This document shows positions 8,649 to 22,426 of a stretch of 25,055 bases of DNA, in pieces (position 1 is the stretch's first letter; every line of letters starts with the position of its first letter). Location of the stretch: the IMG/VR virus record IMGVR_UViG_3300017986_000127, positions 1 through 25,055 of that record; one strand, written 5' to 3'. The stretch comes from a virus. Under the pieces are notes generated by a model. The model searched no databases and was not told the origin of the DNA. It saw nothing but the letters and a program-made list of their open reading frames with translations. A program made the position numbers and the translations under genes.

Positions 8649-9374
8649 CTACTTAATCTTTGTTTGGATTGACCCCGGCCCACCACCACCAAACTGTCCT
8701 CCTCCCTGTGCTCCTCCCCCGAAAGAGTAATTGGCAAATACATTTTCTTTATTACGAATCTCAAATCCTATAGGTCTGCCCGGAATTCTGAGTTGCCCGT
8801 ATACTATAGGAACTGGGTCTCCTTCAAGAATGTTTTGTTCTGCACCACTAAATAAATAAGTATTCTCTGCAATTGGAGTATCTGGAGTATCTACAGAAGG
8901 GTCGGGGGCCATCATCTGCTGTATTCCTGTAAGTGCTAAGTTTACTGCAACCCCTATTAAAACCGGAGTGGCTGCCATCGTAAAACCAGCTATAGACATT
9001 CCAATAGACCCTGCGGCCCCTCCAAGGTTAGCCGAAGCAAGCATTAATTGAGGGGCAAAATATACCAATGCTATAATAGCTACTGCGGCAAGTATTTTTC
9101 CCAAAGCACTTTTAGAGCCTGCGGGCTGAGGAGATATATAAACATCTCCCTCTTGCAAAGATAGTAAAAGTTCTTCTTCGTCATCTAGTCCTTTATGCCC
9201 TATTTGACATAGAAATCCAATATCTTTTTCATGGCAATCGATAAGATACTGTCGAAGCTCGGGAAAGTTACATTCAAGACAACGAAAAACATCAGACATT
9301 CTCTCAGCATAAATAGTAAACTCAGAGCCAAACCTCTCTGCCATTTCGCCCTCAAGATAAACTTTACGCATCAT
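8649..9374 (-). CDS. gpI-like tail assembly protein (241 aa)
   Basis: This is the lambda gpI equivalent, required with gpK, gpL and gpJ for building the tail tip. Residues 1-82 look like the ubiquitin-like (beta-grasp) fold of the family, ending LQEGDVYISP. Two hydrophobic Gly/Ala-rich segments follow (about 90-117 and 122-150), predicted to insert in or pass through a membrane. Next comes the conserved LFSGAEQNILEGDPVPIVYG segment (about 174-193) and RIPGRPIG. The last 25 residues are Gly-rich (GGGAQGGGQFGGGGPG). The start overlaps the end of the gpK-like gene by 11 bases, as in other lambdoid tails. It lies 11 bases before the gpJ-like gene. Family membership is clear from architecture and position. 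Confidence 0.9.
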   Translation of the reverse strand: MMRKVYLEGEMAERFGSEFTIYAERMSDVFRCLECNFPELRQYLIDCHEKDIGFLCQIGHKGLDDEEELLLSLQEGDVYISPQPAGSKSALGKILAAVAIIALVYFAPQLMLASANLGGAAGSIGMSIAGFTMAATPVLIGVAVNLALTGIQQMMAPDPSVDTPDTPIAENTYLFSGAEQNILEGDPVPIVYGQLRIPGRPIGFEIRNKENVFANYSFGGGAQGGGQFGGGGPGSIQTKIK

Positions 9375-10050
9375 ATCTATAAACTCCTGCTAAATATTTT
9401 AACCATAGAGCATTTAGTGGCTCTCTGCAAGATAAACGTTGCTCTGCATGATGGAAAAATACATTATTACCTAAATAGATACCACAATGATTTGGTACAT
9501 CAGATTGAATTTGAAATAGTAGTACATCATTTTTTTCTGGAATTTCTACCTTTTTAAAGTTCCACTCGTTCATTCTTTTTTCTGAAAAATAATTTAATCC
9601 CTTTTTCCACCAATCATCTTCAAAAGGCTCTCGTTTAGGAATAGATATATTTTCTTTAGCTAACCAGTCTCTTGCGGCTTCAAAACAGTCTTTTACCCCA
9701 AATTCGTACTCTCTACCTATAAGAGGGTGACTAAGTTTTTGTGGTTCTACTATATTTAAATCCATCGCCGGATAGCTAAATATCCAATAAGGTATTCCTA
9801 ATGCATTACAGTAGTTCGTGTCGGTAATACTAGGCTCATTGCTTGCATCCGGATGACTATGCACTATTGCCAAAATATCACAACGTTTTACTATATCAAA
9901 ATAATCTTCTGAAGAAAGTATAAAATCATCTTCATCTTCTGCTACGTTTCTACAAGGAAACCATCGTTTCTTTCCTTTTACAATTCCGATTATTCCACAC
10001 CCCTCTCGGGGGTATTCTTTTTTAAAATGCTCTTGTATCTCTTCAATCAT
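9364..10050 (-). CDS. gpK-like tail protein: JAMM peptidase + NlpC/P60 hydrolase (228 aa)
   Basis: This two-domain enzyme occupies the lambda gpK slot. Residues 1-105 form a Mov34/JAMM metalloprotease-like domain with a complete zinc motif: E16 (PREGCG), H64-S-H66 (IVHSHPDAS), S74 and D77 (SITD). Residues 113-228 form an NlpC/P60 cysteine hydrolase domain: nucleophile candidate C122 in YEFGVKDCFEA, histidine H188 in NHCGIYLG, and a further histidine pair at 200-201. In this family the NlpC/P60 domain is thought to cut peptidoglycan cross-links during DNA entry. The JAMM domain may process a tail protein. Both active sites appear intact. The gene starts 2 bases after the gpL-like gene's stop and overlaps gpI by 11 bases. 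Confidence 0.93.
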   Translation of the reverse strand: MIEEIQEHFKKEYPREGCGIIGIVKGKKRWFPCRNVAEDEDDFILSSEDYFDIVKRCDILAIVHSHPDASNEPSITDTNYCNALGIPYWIFSYPAMDLNIVEPQKLSHPLIGREYEFGVKDCFEAARDWLAKENISIPKREPFEDDWWKKGLNYFSEKRMNEWNFKKVEIPEKNDVLLFQIQSDVPNHCGIYLGNNVFFHHAEQRLSCREPLNALWLKYLAGVYRYDA

Positions 10051-11012: not shown

Positions 11013-11458
11013 TAGGTAGCAGGCTCATATACTCGTTTAAGGGTAGCTTGAATAGACACAGCACTTTCTTGTAAATAAACTAAATTATACCCTTCACAAG
11101 TAACACGAATTGTTTCAGGCGTTCCGTCAGATGTGCTATTTTCAGGGTCAAATAAAGTGTTTGTTACTTTTAAGTCAAAGTTTAGACCCTGTTTTAGATC
11201 AAAAAAAGCAGCAATTAAATTTGCTTCCTTGTAGTCCCTGTTATTAAATGAAATAGATATATTTTCTTGTTTTGTATTTATGCCGTCTAAAGCTCGCTGT
11301 TCGTACCCATCTCCAAATTTTGCAGTTAAAAGAGAGTAGCTTACTTGGCGATTTAATCCTCTATCTGCTTTAACTTCGTAGGTTTGAGTTCTTCCAGTGT
11401 CTCCAAAAATACTTTGTAAATCTGCTGTGCTTATTGTAAAACTATATTGTTTTGCCAT
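11012..11458 (-). CDS. gpM-like minor tail protein (148 aa)
   Basis: This is the lambda gpM equivalent, a small tail-tip subunit placed between the tape measure and gpL genes. The family hallmark AKFGDGYEQRALDGIN is at about residues 46-61. It is followed by the alternating pattern of a beta-sandwich, AAFFDLKQGLNFDLKVTN and a closing strand (IQATLKRVYEP). Its length is close to the family norm of 110-150 residues. Start and stop overlap the neighbouring genes by one base each (TAATG), so it is probably translationally coupled to the tape measure. No membrane segment or unusual residue is visible. Confidence 0.92.
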   Translation of the reverse strand: MAKQYSFTISTADLQSIFGDTGRTQTYEVKADRGLNRQVSYSLLTAKFGDGYEQRALDGINTKQENISISFNNRDYKEANLIAAFFDLKQGLNFDLKVTNTLFDPENSTSDGTPETIRVTCEGYNLVYLQESAVSIQATLKRVYEPAT

Positions 11459-14400
11459 TATGCGGCTCCATAAGGGCTAAGAATGCCCCCTGAACGTTTT
11501 TGATTTTGTAACTCTTTCTGTACCGCTGCTGCAATAACATTTCCTAAATTTTTTCCTTGCTGCGAATCACTTCCTGCAATATTTTGCTGTGCATTTCCAT
11601 TTCCATCAATGTTTACATTTACTACAACATTATTACTTTGATTATTTCCTCTCATCTCTACAGGAATAGCATTTCCATTTGGAAGAGGTACTACGGCTTC
11701 TGTTCCGTGAAGAATTGCAGGATACCCAGCATTTCGACCTCTTGCTATTCCTCCAGTAGCATATCCAGGGACGGGCTCAAACATTCCTCCTGTTCTACCA
11801 TAAAGTAGCCCCACGCCCTGTCCACTAGCACCACTATTTGTAAAGCCGGACATAGTATCTATATTTGTAGGAATACCACCGGCTCCAGCACCTAAAACAG
11901 GAACACCTAATCCAGGTAAAAAGCTAGATATAAGTCTAAAAGCTATCATCTTTGCAATCATTTGTGCAATATAGTTAAGAATACTTACTGCCATTTCTTT
12001 AAAGGCTTGTTTTGCGGACTTAGTACCTGCTATAATACTAGTAAATGCATTTTCAAACCCGCCTCGTATTTGATCGTAAAGACCTGAACGAGCTTCTATA
12101 ACCATATTTAACTCGTATTGTGCTTCGTATTCTTCATATATTTTTGATTTTTGCTCCTCTGAAAGGGATATCCCTTTTAGCTTTTGTTGAAGTATAAATT
12201 CATTTGCTTGCTGAAGTGCGGGATTTAAAGATAAAGTTTGTTTGGTTAATCTTAACTCGTCAGTTTTTCTCTGAAGAGAAACTACAGCTAATTCGGCTTG
12301 GCGTTGCTGCAAAAATATCTCTGCCTCAATGCCTGCAAGTTTAGCCTTTTGCACGTCTATTTCTGCTATGGCGTTAGCTCTCTCCTCAACCCCTACTACA
12401 GTACTAAGATTAGTTTCTAATTCAAAAATCTGTTGAGCTTGCTGCCTTCTTTTATCCTGTAAATCTAGCAATCTTAATTGCTGTTCTAGCTCTCCAGACT
12501 GTACTGCTCTAGTAGAGAATGCTCCTGCAACAGTTAATCCTGTTCGAGTTTGGGTACTTCTTGTATCTTGATTTAGTTGTTTTGTCTTTTCTGCGGTTAT
12601 AAGTTTTTCTACCGCGAGCTTTCGCTCTTCATAAGAGAGTCCTTCTTCTTGCAGCCTTACCTGTGCCTGAGTAACTGTTAATGTCGATAAAGCTTGCTGA
12701 TACGCTGCTTCGGCATTTACTTTTTCTTCTTGGGTTGAGTTACTTCCTTCAGCAAGAGCAGCGTTTCTTCTAGCGGTGGCGGTAGTTAAATTTTGCGATG
12801 CTGTTAATAGCTTTGTAGCTAAACCAAATCTTTTTGCCTCAATATTCTGTGCTTTTTCTGCAAAACTTCTGCCTAAAGTTTGTAATTGTACCTCTCGCTG
12901 TTTAAACTCATTTATCGTTTTTTGACGCGCTACTAGCTCCTCCGAAAATGCTAAGAACGCGGCTTGCAACTCTTCCTGATAAGCCAGCTGCTGTGTTTCT
13001 TTTTCAATAGCTTTTAAATTCTCTTCATTTTGCGCAGTTCTATTAGCTTCGAAGTCCGCCAGTGCTTTGGCTTTGTCTATTTCGAGTTGGGCCAGTCTTG
13101 CTTTCTTATTTTCGGCTCGTGTAGACCCGGTTCCTCCCAAGAAGCCGCTTCCAAATTCGAAAAAGTCATCAGAACGTATATTAGTAAGTCTATCTATTTC
13201 TTTTTGTAAGGCATCAGCTTCTGTATTAGTTGACTCAGCTATTCGTTTTGCTTCTCTCTGTAAACCCTCTAAAGATTGTCGACCTTCTATAATTGATTTA
13301 TCTAAAGAGGTACGAAGATTCGTAGTAGGGTCGACTGTTAGTCCAGTACCTGTTAATTTATCCAGCTCTATAAATACATCTTTTGTAGTTTGTGCAAATG
13401 CTTTGGCTGAAGCCCCTGTAGTAATATATCCTTGAGAGATTTGTAATAGCTGGTCTCTTACTTCCTCTGGTACATTTTTCAAGTCTAAATCTTTTGCTAA
13501 ATTTGCAAATGTTGTATCATATCGACCAAGAATTCTTAAAGTTTGTTCAAAGCCTGCTGCAGCCTTTGCAAACTTATCACTATCTTTGTCTAATGCATTT
13601 AATTCTCTAAATTGAGTGGCTAAGTCGGCGCTAGCAAAAGCATTTCCTGATTGAATAACTCTTTCTTTTAAGTTAAGCAGCCCTTTAGCTGCATCTAATT
13701 GCGTGAATCTTTCTAATTCTTCATTTAAAGTTTTACTTCTTTCTGAAAACGCATCTAAAGCTTCTTCAGATTTTTTAACCTCTTCAGGCACAGGATTTAA
13801 ATAGTCGTAAAAAGATTTAATAGCTTGTCCAGCAAGAAGCAAAAGACTAATCCAACCCGCTATAGAAAATGCAGCACTTAAAGCACCTGCAATTTTAGAA
13901 GAAGCCTTGGCAGTAAATTTTTGCAGGCTAGCTAGACCTGCTTTAGTTTTAATAATGTATCCTTTTACATGAAGGTTAAGTTTTGTATACATAGAAGCGT
14001 GTTGCTTCTCAAACTTAGTTATAACTGCCACCCTTTCTACATAGGATTTTCTTAAATCAGCTATTTGTTGAGCATTTGCACCCTTTAGTTTGCCTGATAT
14101 AACTACAGTATGTTTTTTAATCTGAGCTTCTGCATTCTTTAAAATTTTGTCAGCATTTGCTTGAGCAGTTTTAGAGGTTGCTCCTCCAGTTAAAAAGTCT
14201 GCACCGCTTTTACCAGTAGCTCCAAATTTTTTAGTATCAATTCCTATATCTTTAAATACTTGCTTACTTGCTTTTTGATTATTTTTTAGTACTGTATCTT
14301 GATCCGCCCCTAAATTTTTAATGGTTCCTCTAATTTTATCATAAGATTTGTCCAAGTCTGCAAGTTTAGCTTTTTGAATATCAAAGCTTTCAGCCGCAGC

Positions 14401-15336
14401 ATCCCCCCAATCTTTAAAGCTAGGTAAAATACTTTTAATTATAGGAAGGGCAAAAAGAGTCAAAGCTCCACTAAGAGCCAGAGTATTTTTAGATAAGAAA
14501 TCAAAAATTGGAGTTAAACTTCCTGCAACTCCAATTTTTATGCTATTAATTAAATTATCAAAACTAACTAAAAACCTGTTTAAAGAGGAGGCAGTAGGAT
14601 TCATTATTTTTTCAATAGCCCCAAACTTTTTCTCTGCCTGAGTTAAAACATCATTAGCTACTGCTTGGGTTCTTTCTAGTTGTGTAAGCTCTTTTACCGG
14701 CTTATTTAAAGCTCTGGCATATTCTTCTGTTGCATCGGCAAGTCTAAGTGTAATACCTAATTCGTCTAAAAGTTCTGGTTCTGCTTTTGTAACACCTCGT
14801 ACTAAACGATTAAAAGAATCTGTTAAATCTCTGCCTAAAGCAAATGAAGCATTTTTTGCTGCGTTACCTAAAGCATCCAATTGGCTAGGATTCAGTCCTG
14901 CGGCAGTACCAATAGCTGCTGCTCGTGCCGCTTCTGCATAACTTATTTGACCATCTGTAGCTTCCTTAATACTATTTGTAATAGTTTTATAAGCAACTCC
15001 AGTAACAGCTCCTAAAGCCTCTTGACCTGCTATCAAATTTCTAACTTCACTAGCATTTCTCAGAAATTGAAAAGCCGCACTAACAGCAAAAACTTGAGCG
15101 GCAAGAGTAGCATATGCAGGAACAAGCCCTCCAGATATGCCTTGAGCCATTTTAGAAAAGTTTTTAGTGCCATTTGCAGAAGCTTGAGCAGCTCCTTTTA
15201 GATTTCTATCAGCAGTACGAGCGGACTTGCCCGTCTTTTCTAAAGCAATTCCAAGCTTTTCTGCATTTACGGCTACACGTTTTGTAGTGCCTTTATCATC
15301 TACAACTACGTCAATAAATACTTTATTTTTTGCCAT
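11458..15336 (-). CDS. Tape measure protein (1292 aa)
   Basis: This protein fills the tail tube, sets its length and is ejected ahead of DNA. With the usual 1.5 Angstrom per residue, 1292 residues predict a tail of about 190 nm. The N-terminal 250 residues are Ala-rich and helical, with SFALGRDLTDSFNRLVRGV typical of the family. Hydrophobic segments at about 71-90, 286-302 and 483-507 are candidates for inner-membrane insertion. A long Gln/Glu/Lys/Ala-rich coiled coil spans roughly 600-1090. The C-terminal part has another hydrophobic stretch (about 1110-1155). It ends with Gly-rich sequence and the characteristic AILHGTEAVVPLPNG. The start overlaps the end of the chaperone T frame by one base (TAATG), and gpM follows with the same overlap. 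No lytic transglycosylase motif was recognised. Confidence 0.95.
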   Translation of the reverse strand: MAKNKVFIDVVVDDKGTTKRVAVNAEKLGIALEKTGKSARTADRNLKGAAQASANGTKNFSKMAQGISGGLVPAYATLAAQVFAVSAAFQFLRNASEVRNLIAGQEALGAVTGVAYKTITNSIKEATDGQISYAEAARAAAIGTAAGLNPSQLDALGNAAKNASFALGRDLTDSFNRLVRGVTKAEPELLDELGITLRLADATEEYARALNKPVKELTQLERTQAVANDVLTQAEKKFGAIEKIMNPTASSLNRFLVSFDNLINSIKIGVAGSLTPIFDFLSKNTLALSGALTLFALPIIKSILPSFKDWGDAAAESFDIQKAKLADLDKSYDKIRGTIKNLGADQDTVLKNNQKASKQVFKDIGIDTKKFGATGKSGADFLTGGATSKTAQANADKILKNAEAQIKKHTVVISGKLKGANAQQIADLRKSYVERVAVITKFEKQHASMYTKLNLHVKGYIIKTKAGLASLQKFTAKASSKIAGALSAAFSIAGWISLLLLAGQAIKSFYDYLNPVPEEVKKSEEALDAFSERSKTLNEELERFTQLDAAKGLLNLKERVIQSGNAFASADLATQFRELNALDKDSDKFAKAAAGFEQTLRILGRYDTTFANLAKDLDLKNVPEEVRDQLLQISQGYITTGASAKAFAQTTKDVFIELDKLTGTGLTVDPTTNLRTSLDKSIIEGRQSLEGLQREAKRIAESTNTEADALQKEIDRLTNIRSDDFFEFGSGFLGGTGSTRAENKKARLAQLEIDKAKALADFEANRTAQNEENLKAIEKETQQLAYQEELQAAFLAFSEELVARQKTINEFKQREVQLQTLGRSFAEKAQNIEAKRFGLATKLLTASQNLTTATARRNAALAEGSNSTQEEKVNAEAAYQQALSTLTVTQAQVRLQEEGLSYEERKLAVEKLITAEKTKQLNQDTRSTQTRTGLTVAGAFSTRAVQSGELEQQLRLLDLQDKRRQQAQQIFELETNLSTVVGVEERANAIAEIDVQKAKLAGIEAEIFLQQRQAELAVVSLQRKTDELRLTKQTLSLNPALQQANEFILQQKLKGISLSEEQKSKIYEEYEAQYELNMVIEARSGLYDQIRGGFENAFTSIIAGTKSAKQAFKEMAVSILNYIAQMIAKMIAFRLISSFLPGLGVPVLGAGAGGIPTNIDTMSGFTNSGASGQGVGLLYGRTGGMFEPVPGYATGGIARGRNAGYPAILHGTEAVVPLPNGNAIPVEMRGNNQSNNVVVNVNIDGNGNAQQNIAGSDSQQGKNLGNVIAAAVQKELQNQKRSGGILSPYGAA

Positions 15337-16180
15337 TAGCCCCGCACATTATGGGTGTAGGTTTTTCCACCTCCTGCAGATTTAGATTTTCTTTCGTCTG
15401 CTTTACGCTTTCTTTCTGCTTCTTCGTATCTATACTGTATTAAAATTCTTTCATACATTTTTGTAAAAAAGAAAATAATTTTAGGGTGTTCTAATTCAAA
15501 TGTTGATATAATATTTGGAAACTCATCCCAATTTTTTCCTAGATAAGTTCCCGACATTCCTTCCCAATTATCAGACATAAAGCTGAATACAAAAAATGCC
15601 ACTTGGACCTCGGCAGGAAAATCCTCGAGATCGAGCGGCATTTTTGATGGATCAGGCTCTTGTCCAAGCTGCTCACACATATGTAGATATTTTTCTACGT
15701 CTATCTGTGAGCTTTCTCTTACGTATCGTTCAAGTAGCTTTTTTATTTCGGCTACTTGTTGCTCGTAAAATTTTCCAGATCACCTACTGTTTCGGTTACC
15801 CAAGAATCAAATTCAGTGCCATTTTTCATAAGAAGCTCTGCATTCTCTTGTGTAAACGGCAGTTCATTATTAGGATCAAGTTCAGAAATATCCACCAAAA
15901 GAAACTCTTCTAGGTATCGAAATTTAAAACCTTTCCATCCTTTAATTACTGCTTTACAATACTCTATTAAAAACTTTTCTTCATCTAACTCTTCTTGAGG
16001 TTGTCTGGTTTTTTTATCAAACTTTGTAGTAATACATTTTTTACGAAGTTTTAACAACTCCTCACGCGCTAAATAGCAAAGATCTACTTGCATTCCCTGT
16101 TTTCCGGGAAAATCAATTGTTACTGTTTTACTTGGAGTCATGAGACTCGCGAGAGAGATAGGCTTTTTGTTGTCTGTCAT
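15336..16180 (-). CDS. Tail assembly chaperone G-T fusion made by -1 frameshift (281 aa)
   Basis: A minor fraction of ribosomes translating the G-like gene should slip back one base at the heptamer at 15773-15767 (A AAT TTT). They then continue in the frame that ends at 15336. The -1 frame is open from the slip site: after residue F138 it reads YEQQVAEIKKLLERYVRESS and continues to the last codon, adding 143 residues. In lambda the G-T product recruits major tail subunits (via T) to the tape measure (bound via G), and it is absent from mature tails. The T part here is acidic/aromatic in the middle (FFVFSFMSDNWEGMSG) and ends in a basic tail (ERKRKADERKSK). The first ATG in the T frame, at 15680, has no Shine-Dalgarno sequence and lies inside the open -1 frame. 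It is therefore unlikely to be a real start. Fusion efficiency cannot be read from sequence. Confidence 0.87.
15731..15773 (-). promoter_or_regulatory. Programmed -1 ribosomal frameshift signal
   Basis: All three classical parts are present on the minus strand. The slippery heptamer A AAT TTT is at 15773-15767 in the G frame (X XXY YYZ form). An 8-base spacer (acgagcaa) follows. Then comes a perfect 8-bp inverted repeat CAAGTAGC (15758-15751) / GCTACTTG (15738-15731) around a 12-base A-rich loop. The G stop codon TAG lies inside the 5' arm. After slippage the AAA and TTT codons still pair well with the tRNAs. Confidence 0.87.
15752..16180 (-). CDS. Tail assembly chaperone G (142 aa)
   Basis: This is the zero-frame product in the lambda G position: between the major tail protein and tape measure genes, followed by an overlapping -1 frame. 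The start at 16180 has AAGGA 7 bases upstream. It is the first gene after promoter P2, with a leader of about 30 bases. The protein starts MTDNKKPISLASLMTPSKTV, is about 140 residues long, helical and of mixed charge, with no membrane segment, as is usual for G. It ends FTSNK at a TAG that lies within the frameshift stem. G chaperones coat the tape measure during tail assembly. Sequence conservation in the family is low, so the call rests on position, size and the frameshift signal. Confidence 0.88.
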   Translation of the reverse strand: MTDNKKPISLASLMTPSKTVTIDFPGKQGMQVDLCYLAREELLKLRKKCITTKFDKKTRQPQEELDEEKFLIEYCKAVIKGWKGFKFRYLEEFLLVDISELDPNNELPFTQENAELLMKNGTEFDSWVTETVGDLENFTSNK

Positions 16181-16218
16181 AGTTAGTCCTTAAAGGTTTT
16201 TATTGATTTATACCACAT

Positions 16219-16247
16219 ATTATATCGAAGGGCAGGAAAAATGTCAA
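16219..16247 (-). promoter_or_regulatory. Promoter P2, perfect sigma-70 consensus, before tail chaperone genes
   Basis: TTGACA (16247-16242), a 17-base spacer (tttttcctgcccttcga) and TATAAT (16224-16219) on the minus strand give an exact sigma-70 consensus. It lies in the 136-base gap (16181-16316) between the major tail protein and chaperone genes, 25 bases past an intrinsic terminator. An A/T-rich stretch precedes the -35 box. The expected leader is about 30 bases and includes AAGGA before the ATG at 16180. It should reset transcription for the chaperone, tape measure and tail-tip genes. Confidence 0.87.
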
Positions 16248-16271: not shown

Positions 16272-16294
16272 AAAAAACCCGCCGAAGCGGGTTT
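16272..16294 (-). terminator. Intrinsic terminator after the major tail protein gene
   Basis: On the minus strand, AAACCCGC and GCGGGTTT pair perfectly around a TTCG loop, forming the very stable C(UUCG)G tetraloop. The 3' arm runs into a T tract (TTTTTT overall, 16277-16272). It starts 22 bases past the major tail protein stop at 16317. The plus strand has only three T after the stem, so termination is directional. Confidence 0.93.
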
Positions 16295-20416: not shown

Positions 20417-21817
20417 TTAAGCTACTGCGTTGAGTCGAACTACGGAAACGTCCGTTGAAGTATCAGCTACGAGCTGGTTAAAGCCCAGAGACTGAGTAGC
20501 AACGATAACGTTACGCTGGTTCATTACTTCGTAATCTTGCTCAACATTTACACCACGCAGACGTGGGATAGCAAAGTTACGAACGTTGACTGCCAGGCCA
20601 ACACAAGCATTGTCAGCTTCCGCGGGGAAGTTGTCAGATACGATTACGGGCGTACCGAAAATCGCACCTACCTGACCGGTCAGCTTGGTAGCAACGTCAG
20701 AACCTACATCAGTGATATCGGCGAAGCCGGCATCAGCGATCAGGTCATAGTAACGCTTCTGAGATACAACGTATACCAGCTCATCAGGCATCATGCCATA
20801 CTTACCCATCAGCTTACGAGCAGACAGGAAGTCAGCAGCGTCTACTGAAGTAGTAGCCAGAGCAGCGGCAGATACAGAAGTATCAAAGATATTAGTACCT
20901 GCAAGCTTAATCAGACCGTCAAAGTCGTCAGAGCCAGCAGTGTCGTGGTTCAGCAAAGCATCGTCTACAGCGCGAGCGTGTGAACGTGCAACTGATTCTA
21001 CGAGCATAGGCATCAGATTGATCAGGATTTCCTCGTCAACGTGGTTATCCATCAACGTGGTTGAAATCAATCGGTAAGCCTTCAGGACTACCTGAGCAGG
21101 CTGAGGAGCAGCGCCGCCTCGAGTCTGCAAGTTACCTGAAGTAGCTGCACCAGTCTGGAATGTAGCCAGACCTGTATCCTGTTGGATAGGCAGTACTTGA
21201 GCCTGTGAGTTGATCTGGATCTCACGGAACGCACGAGCCAGTCGCAGTTCACGCATGATTTCCTTCTCAATTTGGCTAGATACTTCAGTGGCGATGTTGG
21301 GAGCAGAAGATGAATAAGTTACACCAGCTTTCTCAAGGATACCGCGACCGTATGAAGTGTCTTCCATGCCTTTACCAGTCATTACACCCAGCAGGTGAGC
21401 GTGCATGAACTCTTTGCCCCACTTAGAGATTGAATCGCCTTCTGAACGATCAGAGAATACACGCTTAGACTCACGCATTTTGGTGATTTCTTCGCTCTTC
21501 TCTTCCAGTTGCTTCTGATACGACAGAATTACTTCGTCGATCTTAGCATCTTTCTCAGACAGCTTAGCTTCGATGTCAGCCATCAGGCGCTCAGCACCTG
21601 ACTCAACACCAACGCTTACAGCCGCCTTAACTTCTTCTTCTTGAGCAGCTTTCTCAGCAGCTTCTTGAACTGCCTTCTCTTCTGCTTCTTGAACTGCCTT
21701 TTCTTCGGCAGCCTTTGACTCAGCTTGCTTCATAGCGATCTTAGCAGCAGTCTCCTCTGCTACTTTCTTCGCAAAAGCTTCCAAGTCGATTTCGGGAGTT
21801 TTTACTTCTTCCGACAT
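20417..21817 (-). CDS. Major capsid protein from predicted internal start (466 aa)
   Basis: The in-frame ATG at 21817 (residue 204 of the fusion, MSEEVKTPEIDLEAF) follows an excellent Shine-Dalgarno sequence, AGAGGAG, with 6-7 bases spacing. The full-length start at 22426 shows only a stop/start overlap. The product would be scaffold domain plus capsid domain, 466 residues. This is the composition and order of a normal HK97-type capsid precursor that lacks a separate scaffold. High-level initiation here would give many capsid subunits per protease-bearing chain, solving the stoichiometry problem of a one-to-one fusion. The downstream codon usage fits strong expression. No separate promoter is visible. 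This is inferred from sequence only. Confidence 0.65.
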   Translation of the reverse strand: MSEEVKTPEIDLEAFAKKVAEETAAKIAMKQAESKAAEEKAVQEAEEKAVQEAAEKAAQEEEVKAAVSVGVESGAERLMADIEAKLSEKDAKIDEVILSYQKQLEEKSEEITKMRESKRVFSDRSEGDSISKWGKEFMHAHLLGVMTGKGMEDTSYGRGILEKAGVTYSSSAPNIATEVSSQIEKEIMRELRLARAFREIQINSQAQVLPIQQDTGLATFQTGAATSGNLQTRGGAAPQPAQVVLKAYRLISTTLMDNHVDEEILINLMPMLVESVARSHARAVDDALLNHDTAGSDDFDGLIKLAGTNIFDTSVSAAALATTSVDAADFLSARKLMGKYGMMPDELVYVVSQKRYYDLIADAGFADITDVGSDVATKLTGQVGAIFGTPVIVSDNFPAEADNACVGLAVNVRNFAIPRLRGVNVEQDYEVMNQRNVIVATQSLGFNQLVADTSTDVSVVRLNAVA

Positions 21818-22426
21818 TTTGATCTCCTCTTTCGCGGAAATTTCCGCTTCGTCCGGTGTTTCACTAGCTACCGATGAATTTTCATCCTTAGCCAGAGACT
21901 GACCGGCTAGATCTACACGATTGGTGAAAGTTTTCTTGAATTCATTGTACTCTTCAATAGAGTCAAATGACTTCGCCAGAGAAAAAGTTGCTGCTTGATT
22001 ACAGGGTACGGAAACAACCGACACCTCAAACAACTCAGCATCCTTAATCTTTAATCCGTCAGTTTCCGTTAGATAATCAGCATCCTTGACTCGGAAACCA
22101 ACAGAAAAAGCTCCAAGAATGCCTTCTTTTACAAGTTGCGCCACATGATCCGGCGCGGATTTAGAAATTTTAGCCTTCAACTCAAGACCGTTTTCAGTGA
22201 CTTTAAGTCCTGTTGCGCGTCCGATCGGCTTATTATAGTCATGATTGAAAAGAATAATAGGATTCTTCTCAAAGTTGTTCAGACCACCCTTAGTCCAAGC
22301 TTCTGCGTCGATTGTATCACCAGCACGATCAAAATCGCTCGTACTCGCCATACCACAGATGTGAACTCCTCCATCATCCTCATCGAGAGCTTTGAAAGTG
22401 GAGGTAAGATTAAAAATCTTTTCCAT
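20417..22426 (-). CDS. Prohead protease - major capsid protein fusion (669 aa)
   Basis: One reading frame carries two proteins usually encoded separately. Residues 1-155 are an S78-family prohead protease: GMASTSDFDRAGDTIDAEAW, catalytic His candidate H62 in ILFNHDYNKPIG, Ser candidate S108 in LGAFSVGFRV, and ELFEVSVVSVPCNQAA. Residues about 156-205 form a linker. Residues about 206-325 are an Ala/Glu/Lys-rich coiled coil resembling the HK97 scaffolding (delta) domain. Residues about 330-669 are an HK97-fold capsid protein, with REIQINSQAQVLPIQQDTG, DELVYVVSQKRYYDLI and IFGTPVIVSDNFP. The ATG at 22426 overlaps the previous stop by one base. A strong internal start at 21817 could release the capsid half separately. 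The capsid part is visibly richer in G+C and in codons such as AAC, GGC and CTG than its neighbours, as expected for high expression. A terminator follows. Confidence 0.93.
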   Translation of the reverse strand: MEKIFNLTSTFKALDEDDGGVHICGMASTSDFDRAGDTIDAEAWTKGGLNNFEKNPIILFNHDYNKPIGRATGLKVTENGLELKAKISKSAPDHVAQLVKEGILGAFSVGFRVKDADYLTETDGLKIKDAELFEVSVVSVPCNQAATFSLAKSFDSIEEYNEFKKTFTNRVDLAGQSLAKDENSSVASETPDEAEISAKEEIKMSEEVKTPEIDLEAFAKKVAEETAAKIAMKQAESKAAEEKAVQEAEEKAVQEAAEKAAQEEEVKAAVSVGVESGAERLMADIEAKLSEKDAKIDEVILSYQKQLEEKSEEITKMRESKRVFSDRSEGDSISKWGKEFMHAHLLGVMTGKGMEDTSYGRGILEKAGVTYSSSAPNIATEVSSQIEKEIMRELRLARAFREIQINSQAQVLPIQQDTGLATFQTGAATSGNLQTRGGAAPQPAQVVLKAYRLISTTLMDNHVDEEILINLMPMLVESVARSHARAVDDALLNHDTAGSDDFDGLIKLAGTNIFDTSVSAAALATTSVDAADFLSARKLMGKYGMMPDELVYVVSQKRYYDLIADAGFADITDVGSDVATKLTGQVGAIFGTPVIVSDNFPAEADNACVGLAVNVRNFAIPRLRGVNVEQDYEVMNQRNVIVATQSLGFNQLVADTSTDVSVVRLNAVA
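21660..21707 (-). repeat. Tandem 24-base repeat in the scaffold coiled coil
   Basis: Two adjacent 24-base units (21660-21683 and 21684-21707) match at 22 of 24 positions. They encode 8-residue units of the type EEKAVQEA in the delta/scaffold domain of the capsid precursor. The repeat stays in frame and keeps the helical heptad-like character, so it is likely a harmless length polymorphism site in the scaffold helix. Confidence 0.8.
21817..21847 (-). promoter_or_regulatory. Internal ribosome-binding site and palindrome at the protease/capsid junction
   Basis: On the minus strand, the perfect 14-base palindrome GCGGAAATTTCCGC (21847-21834) lies 3 bases before AGAGGAGA (21830-21823). A six-base spacer and ATG (21817-21815) follow. 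The Shine-Dalgarno sequence is among the strongest in the window, although it lies inside a coding frame. The palindrome could form a small hairpin that keeps the site accessible or modulates it. That last role is speculative. Confidence 0.7.

Follow-up and report, generated by a model that had tools for sequence, protein, structure and literature searches.

The DNA analyzed here, referred to as the window, is a virus record of 25,055 bases from a marine phage. It contains the gene order major tail (phrog_3575), G (phrog_313), T (phrog_3914), and tape measure (phrog_3779), and the features described in this and the following paragraph lie on its minus strand. Gene G (15752..16180; phrog_313, E 1.9e-13) encodes a tail assembly chaperone of 142 amino acids and begins with an ATG preceded by a Shine-Dalgarno-like AAGGA that was found by motif scan (16187..16191). 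Further upstream, we identified a candidate sigma-70 promoter, TTGACA-17-TATAAT, with 12 of 12 consensus matches (16219..16247) and, by scan, an intrinsic-terminator-like hairpin that separates the major tail gene from G (16275..16294). The T domain (15336..15767; phrog_3914, E 1e-11) comprises the 143 residues that follow a Phe codon of G in the -1 frame, and its first ATG is located at 15680. The gene for the tape-measure protein (11458..15336; phrog_3779, E 2.1e-48) starts with an ATG that overlaps the T stop by a single base (TAATG, 15336-15338) and has no Shine-Dalgarno sequence.

At the end of G, the strand reads GAA AAT TTT ACG AGC AAC AAG TAG. This stretch includes, in the phase of G, the slippery heptamer A_AAT_TTT (15767..15773), which would place the Asn codon AAT in the P site and the Phe codon TTT in the A site. 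It is followed by an 8-nt spacer, ACGAGCAA (15759..15766), and a predicted stimulatory stem composed of the 5' arm CAAGTAGC (15751..15758), a 12-nt loop (15739..15750), and the 3' arm GCTACTTG (15731..15738). All eight pairs of the stem are Watson-Crick, and the stop codon of G, TAG (15754-15752), sits within the 5' arm. A sequence-only reading of the window had proposed this anatomy, including the stop inside the stem, and it proved exact base for base. Translation also bore out the open -1 frame that this reading had described: from the heptamer, the frame reads F|YEQQVAEIKK... as far as TAA at 15338-15336. The predicted product of the -1 frameshift, GT (15336..16180), has 281 residues, namely 138 residues of G through the Phe plus the 143 of T, and our count of 29 residues between the Tyr and the first ATG agrees with that given previously.

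The sequence-only reading had assigned the pair to the tail chaperones G and GT. This assignment is supported by the family matches, the synteny, the conserved heptamer, and a stem that is kept beyond coding need. A tblastn search with G matched 902 phage records, with a best identity of 40% (E 8e-25), and T matched 891. The records matching G were mostly phages of Vibrio, Salmonella, Escherichia, and Klebsiella; G was less than 60% identical in all 902, a set that may leave out records very near the window. The structure of G was modelled with AlphaFold2 from a 50-row alignment (pLDDT 81.7), and the model strongly matched models of T5-like 'tape measure chaperones'. Its resemblance to solved chaperones was weak (yqbN 3klu, Z 5.5; HK97 chaperone 2ob9, Z 5.0; Foldseek best E 0.26), and Pfam PF08890 scored 17.9 on G, below the cut-off of 27. 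A sequence profile compared with solved structures yielded nothing convincing, the best match being 6m6z (molecule TMH4C4) with E 0.0043. Two other genes on the minus strand of the window were also noted. A 669-residue gene (20417-22426) matches the caudovirus prohead protease family PF04586 with residues 33-153, and by size and position the remainder is probably the major capsid protein, which would make it a putative protease-capsid fusion. A tail gene at 9364-10050 combines an N-terminal JAB/MPN-like domain with a C-terminal NlpC/P60 domain.

The heptamer by itself proves nothing, as AAATTTT is common in such AT-rich DNA; the window contains 18 matches, with 17.1 expected. We compared the site across homologous loci. 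Two scans of viral contigs provided 66 and 65 loci, and 130 of 133 sequences, the window and one further locus included, have both G and T. The distinct junctions from these two scans number 96; T is at -1 with an in-phase AAATTTT in 94 of them and at +1 in two. Two further scans and annotated phage loci enlarged the set to 228 sequences, 225 of them with G (four without a G stop within the locus), and to 159 distinct junctions. An alignment query built from 12 diverse G proteins was unusable for contig scanning because it held no conserved stretch, and single-protein queries were used instead. One locus of the -1 version, with a G that is 84% identical, lies on a MAG contig labelled Gammaproteobacteria (CPC27; L229, 5001-5426). 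This contig is a hint at the host or at a binned phage and is too little for naming a host.

All 100 distinct junctions with T at -1 carry A_AAT_TTT, 95 as GAAAAT_TTT_AC and five as TCAAAT_TTT_ACC; at the protein level, they correspond to 100 distinct -1 fusions, including that of the window. The AAT and TTT codons occur at the shift site in 100/100 cases each, compared to usages of 0.68 and 0.83. AAT is not required by the protein, since the +1 relatives prefer AAC at the same Asn place (34 AAC versus 16 AAT of 59). Motifs of the type H_HH.U_UU.Y, which include A_AA.U_UU.U, are counted among the most efficient -1 motifs of E. coli, and A_AA.U_UU.U is outside the 21 motifs picked for the gene search of the same study (PMC4066793). 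We conclude that the site is not a product of chance, because the heptamer keeps its place in every one of the 100 distinct -1 sequences and the stem exceeds what coding alone would give, as detailed below.

The 100 distinct -1 sequences contain 85 distinct 51-nt sites. All eight pairs of the stem are formed in 58 of these sites and at least seven pairs in 70. When the T codons were redrawn synonymously, the corresponding frequencies were 5.7% and 33.7%. In an ungapped alignment of the sites, the covariation score was 0.221 versus 0.123 in shuffles, the number of cells changed on both sides was 41 versus 13.1, and the proportion of paired cells was 89.1% versus 82.9%; none of the 500 shuffles reached any of these values, and all three were lower when the register was slid by 1-3 columns. 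Two further measures were unexceptional and were equaled by a slide of -3: the number of pairs changed on both sides (three; reached by 189/500 shuffles) and that of further pair types (11; reached by 102/500). Covariation is supported on three of five measures. The innermost pair alone was seen as CG, AU, UA, GC, UG, and GU.

The stem is AU-rich and shifts its register in some rows, and RNAalifold returned no consensus stem on all 85 sites. It gave -0.08 kcal/mol on 81 rows, a subset from which four of the five stemless rows had been removed by name, and -0.55 kcal/mol on the 73 rows with at least six pairs. The 91-nt segment around the window site had a folding z of -3.5, and 0/200 dinucleotide shuffles were as stable. 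With mononucleotide shuffles, the downstream segment reached a mean z of -3.55 in 88 rows of the -1 set compared to -0.70 in 43 marine +1 relatives. Some -1 sequences do without the hairpin: the L214 group (five distinct sites) has the heptamer but no such stem; unusual folding was not detected further downstream in this group either (z -0.1 to -1.9). The position of the G stop within the stem is a clade habit and dispensable: in L129 and L130, 40 nt separate the stop from where the heptamer begins, versus the usual 19, and the stem is nevertheless retained. Judged by these comparisons, both the heptamer and the stem are under selection.

The best-surviving alternative, which we nonetheless regard as very unlikely, is that T is made separately, either from the ATG at 15680 or by ribosomes that re-initiate past the G stop, and that the heptamer is incidental. 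An ATG is indeed present in frame at 15680, ORF calling and the PHROG family start T there, and each of the 100 distinct -1 sequences offers some ATG, GTG, or TTG among the first 45 codons of T. However, none of these 100 sequences has a Shine-Dalgarno-like motif before an in-frame start within the first 45 codons; for the window, this confirms the earlier remark that ATG 15680 lacks one. In the +1 set, such a motif precedes some in-frame T start in 5/59 cases. The position of the first start is scattered from codon 11 to codon 44 in the 98 -1 sequences listed, and in 63 of the 65 loci of the second viral-contig scan, T matches from the shift codon onward, ahead of any ATG. The selection on heptamer and stem likewise argues against an incidental site. 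The sequence-only reading had named homologues with an intact T start of their own and no slippery site as evidence against frameshifting. Homologues without A_AAT_TTT do exist, but a recognizable separate T start is absent from them, and they carry a +1 shift site at the same codon.

The same reading had predicted that standard annotation would start T at the wrong codon, and this was found to be the case for the PHROG family. Position 2 of phrog_3914 falls on T residue 31, which is the first ATG; the family therefore seems to have been assembled from T sequences that begin at internal ATGs. Two separate genes are listed in T5 and in ten relatives with usable annotation at the locus. After the G stop, divergence by codon position was weakly periodic in the -1 set (0.498, 0.375, and 0.575; 86 rows), with a clearer periodicity in the marine +1 relatives (0.287, 0.25, and 0.565; 34 rows).

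Slippage of the RNA polymerase rather than the ribosome, at the short A4T4 run AAAATTTT, is extremely unlikely: the runs are just four bases long, slippage during transcription would mix the frames whereas the relatives keep an in-phase heptamer and, in most cases, a hairpin at constant spacing, and most +1 relatives do not have such a run (e.g., AAC_TTT_CGT). Frame breaks in metagenome contigs are often errors, but a break introduced by sequencing or assembly, or by decay of a gene in which G and T were continuous, has practically no probability here. It is refuted by the comparison, in which 100 distinct -1 sequences break at one and the same codon and 59 others break there in the opposite direction.

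We consider it highly probable, from the comparative data, that the site mediates a programmed -1 ribosomal frameshift yielding the tail chaperones G and GT. Most ribosomes translating G would terminate at TAG, four sense codons past the heptamer, and release the 142-residue G. A minority would pause with tRNA-Asn on AAU and tRNA-Phe on UUU, aided by the hairpin 8 nt downstream. Both tRNAs would then slip back by one base (AAU to AAA and UUU to UUU), and translation would continue in the -1 frame to give the 281-residue GT. By analogy with lambda, G would coat the tape-measure protein, and the T part would bring in the major tail protein. That slippage occurs, its efficiency, and the roles of G and GT are what we infer from the conserved anatomy and from this analogy.

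The control regions of the operon were compared in the same loci. A Shine-Dalgarno-like motif precedes G in 96 of 97 distinct -1 sequences, as called by a script that preferred an ATG with such a motif. Of 87 distinct -1 sequences, 65 have a promoter with at most one mismatch in the 130 nt that precede G, and the same search gave 0/59 in the +1 relatives and 0/87 in shuffles. At a looser threshold, promoter-like sites were not enriched (1 versus 0.7 in shuffles); terminator-like hairpins in the scanned stretch numbered 2, with 0.2 expected. The ATG of the next long ORF overlaps the T stop by one base in 84 of 97 -1 sequences, as TAATG in the window and in the examples printed. A Shine-Dalgarno motif of the tape-measure gene was found neither at the start (0/89) nor at in-frame starts within the first 40 codons (0/84). 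Coupling by overlap looks like a habit of the window phage, because other genes of the window that are overlapped by one base also lack the motif in several cases. It may be hypothesized from this arrangement that the frameshift gates tape-measure synthesis, too. G would be strongly transcribed and initiated on its own Shine-Dalgarno sequence, while the tape measure would start inside the T stop. Mainly ribosomes that have slipped would re-initiate on the tape-measure gene, and a single slip rate would set the G:GT ratio and the tape-measure supply together.

The relatives with T at +1 include cultured phages and many marine ones (L065 and L063 among them). In the first 12 phage records opened (L133-L144), ten of which are classed as Demerecviridae, T is at +1, and in 12/12 TTT_CGN takes the place of the window's TTT_ACG. 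In 11 of the 12, the +1 frame runs through the junction without a stop. In the twelfth, Aeromonas phage Akh-2 (L139), the site is TTT_CGA, and T is uninterrupted if its amber codons are translated, as in the related phage TS3. Akh-2 was considered as a breach of the +1 rule and rejected, as it fits with amber read-through. Among 59 distinct +1 fusions, a set whose membership required TTTCG and thereby skipped L139 as the sole locus, TTT and CGN were found in 59/59 (CGT 52, CGA 4, CGC 3), while arginine codons elsewhere in the +1 genes are 34% CGN and 59% AGA. A -2 shift was considered for these relatives. It would need poor re-pairing (UUU to ACU in AAC_TTT contexts), whereas the +1 shift gives UUU to UUC.

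The late structural genes of the two cultured T5-like Aeromonas phages, Akh-2 and vB_AdhS_TS3 (OP820700; L230-L233), are full of in-frame amber codons. Within 25.6 kb of TS3, ORFs of at least 300 amino acids span 1.5 kb under the standard code and 21.6 kb when TAG is read as sense, a count of ten ORFs of which two lie on the opposite strand and may be spurious. A single 1276-residue ORF holds 77 TAG codons, and a 489-residue ORF, by its position the annotated major capsid protein, holds none. The record lists a tRNA with the anticodon CTA, named tRNA-Pyl. Stop-codon reassignment in Demerecviridae has already been mentioned (PMC11210395).

The fusions of both kinds are colinear over the junction, as illustrated by F|YQEQLEE at -1 (L214) and F|AQEQIEY at +1 (L063), and one +1 locus, L192, has GAAAAT_TTT_CGT, i.e., the heptamer and the +1 site together. 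We calculated a maximum-likelihood tree from 87 of the 159 fusions (49 at -1 and 38 at +1), thinned at 82% identity. The tree requires one change of direction. The -1 set forms one side of a branch with a support of 99/94 that recurs in 98% of 200 bootstrap trees, in an analysis whose bootstrap was unsettled and which contains several long branches. Midpoint rooting, the only root considered, makes the +1 state ancestral. Most likely, judging from these sequences, the clade exchanged a +1 for a -1 mechanism at the same Phe codon. A change of direction within one orthologous chaperone pair was not stated in those parts of the open-access literature that our search covered. The fuller scenario is that the clade went from +1 to -1 at one Phe codon with the proteins remaining colinear, gained the hairpin and the consensus promoter, and uses the frameshift to gate the tape measure as well. 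We offer it tentatively, as a possibility that falls somewhat short of even chances.

The locus adds a well-supported case of such a site in phages to which the searched collection offers no close cultured relative, and it shows annotation losing the transframe part of T. An orthologous pair in which one and the same codon serves a +1 shift in some phages and a -1 shift in others amounts to a natural experiment on selection: the fusion point, and perhaps the ratio, would be held constant, and the decoding mechanism would be free to change. If the tape measure is indeed coupled to frameshifted ribosomes, this would be a simple way to match the amounts of chaperone and tape measure.

Like G/GT of lambda, the window has two overlapping ORFs between the major tail and tape-measure genes, with T at -1 without a start of its own and a slippery heptamer near the end of G. 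The lambda heptamer is G_GGA_AAG, whereas that of the window is A_AAU_UUU, and the window differs further in a hairpin that holds the G stop. The roles of lambda G and GT and their ratio of 30:1 have been described together with a likely +1 case, HSTV-2 (PMC5009743). Other tail-chaperone pairs shift otherwise, probably by +1 in HSTV-2 and by -2 in Mu (PMC5009743, PMC3498833); they are likened to the window pair by shift direction only, as separate phages. Backward and forward shifts have also been counted in a set consisting mostly of tail chaperones (PMC10885494).

The T5-like phages (Demerecviridae), represented by T5.143/T5.142 with the shift site ACT_TTT_CGT, share homologous G and T with the window (G is 25-40% identical in the listed places) and the handover at the same Phe codon. 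They differ in having T at +1 on UUU_CGN, where the window has TTT_ACG and T at -1. The 43 marine +1 relatives that were folded, unlike the window, have little downstream structure (mean z -0.70). That T5-like chaperones frameshift has been thought of before, as the record of Salmonella phage Shivani (KP143763; L235, 93207-94038) already contains a joined chaperone CDS; the words frameshift and chaperone are absent from the text of the Shivani genome paper as searched. A Shivani chaperone is listed at 277 amino acids, presumably the joined product, and a +1 shift predicts 276. This excess of one residue may mean that a -2 shift was entered in the record by its depositors. The tetranucleotide of the +1 relatives, as opposed to the window site, is that of the eukaryotic PA-X system of influenza A, in which UCC_UUU_CGU supports a +1 shift by P-site slippage of tRNA-Phe from UUU to UUC before CGU (PMC3498833). 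On its own, the -1 site of the window belongs to a well-known kind; it is the switch of direction and the possible gating of the tape measure that go further.
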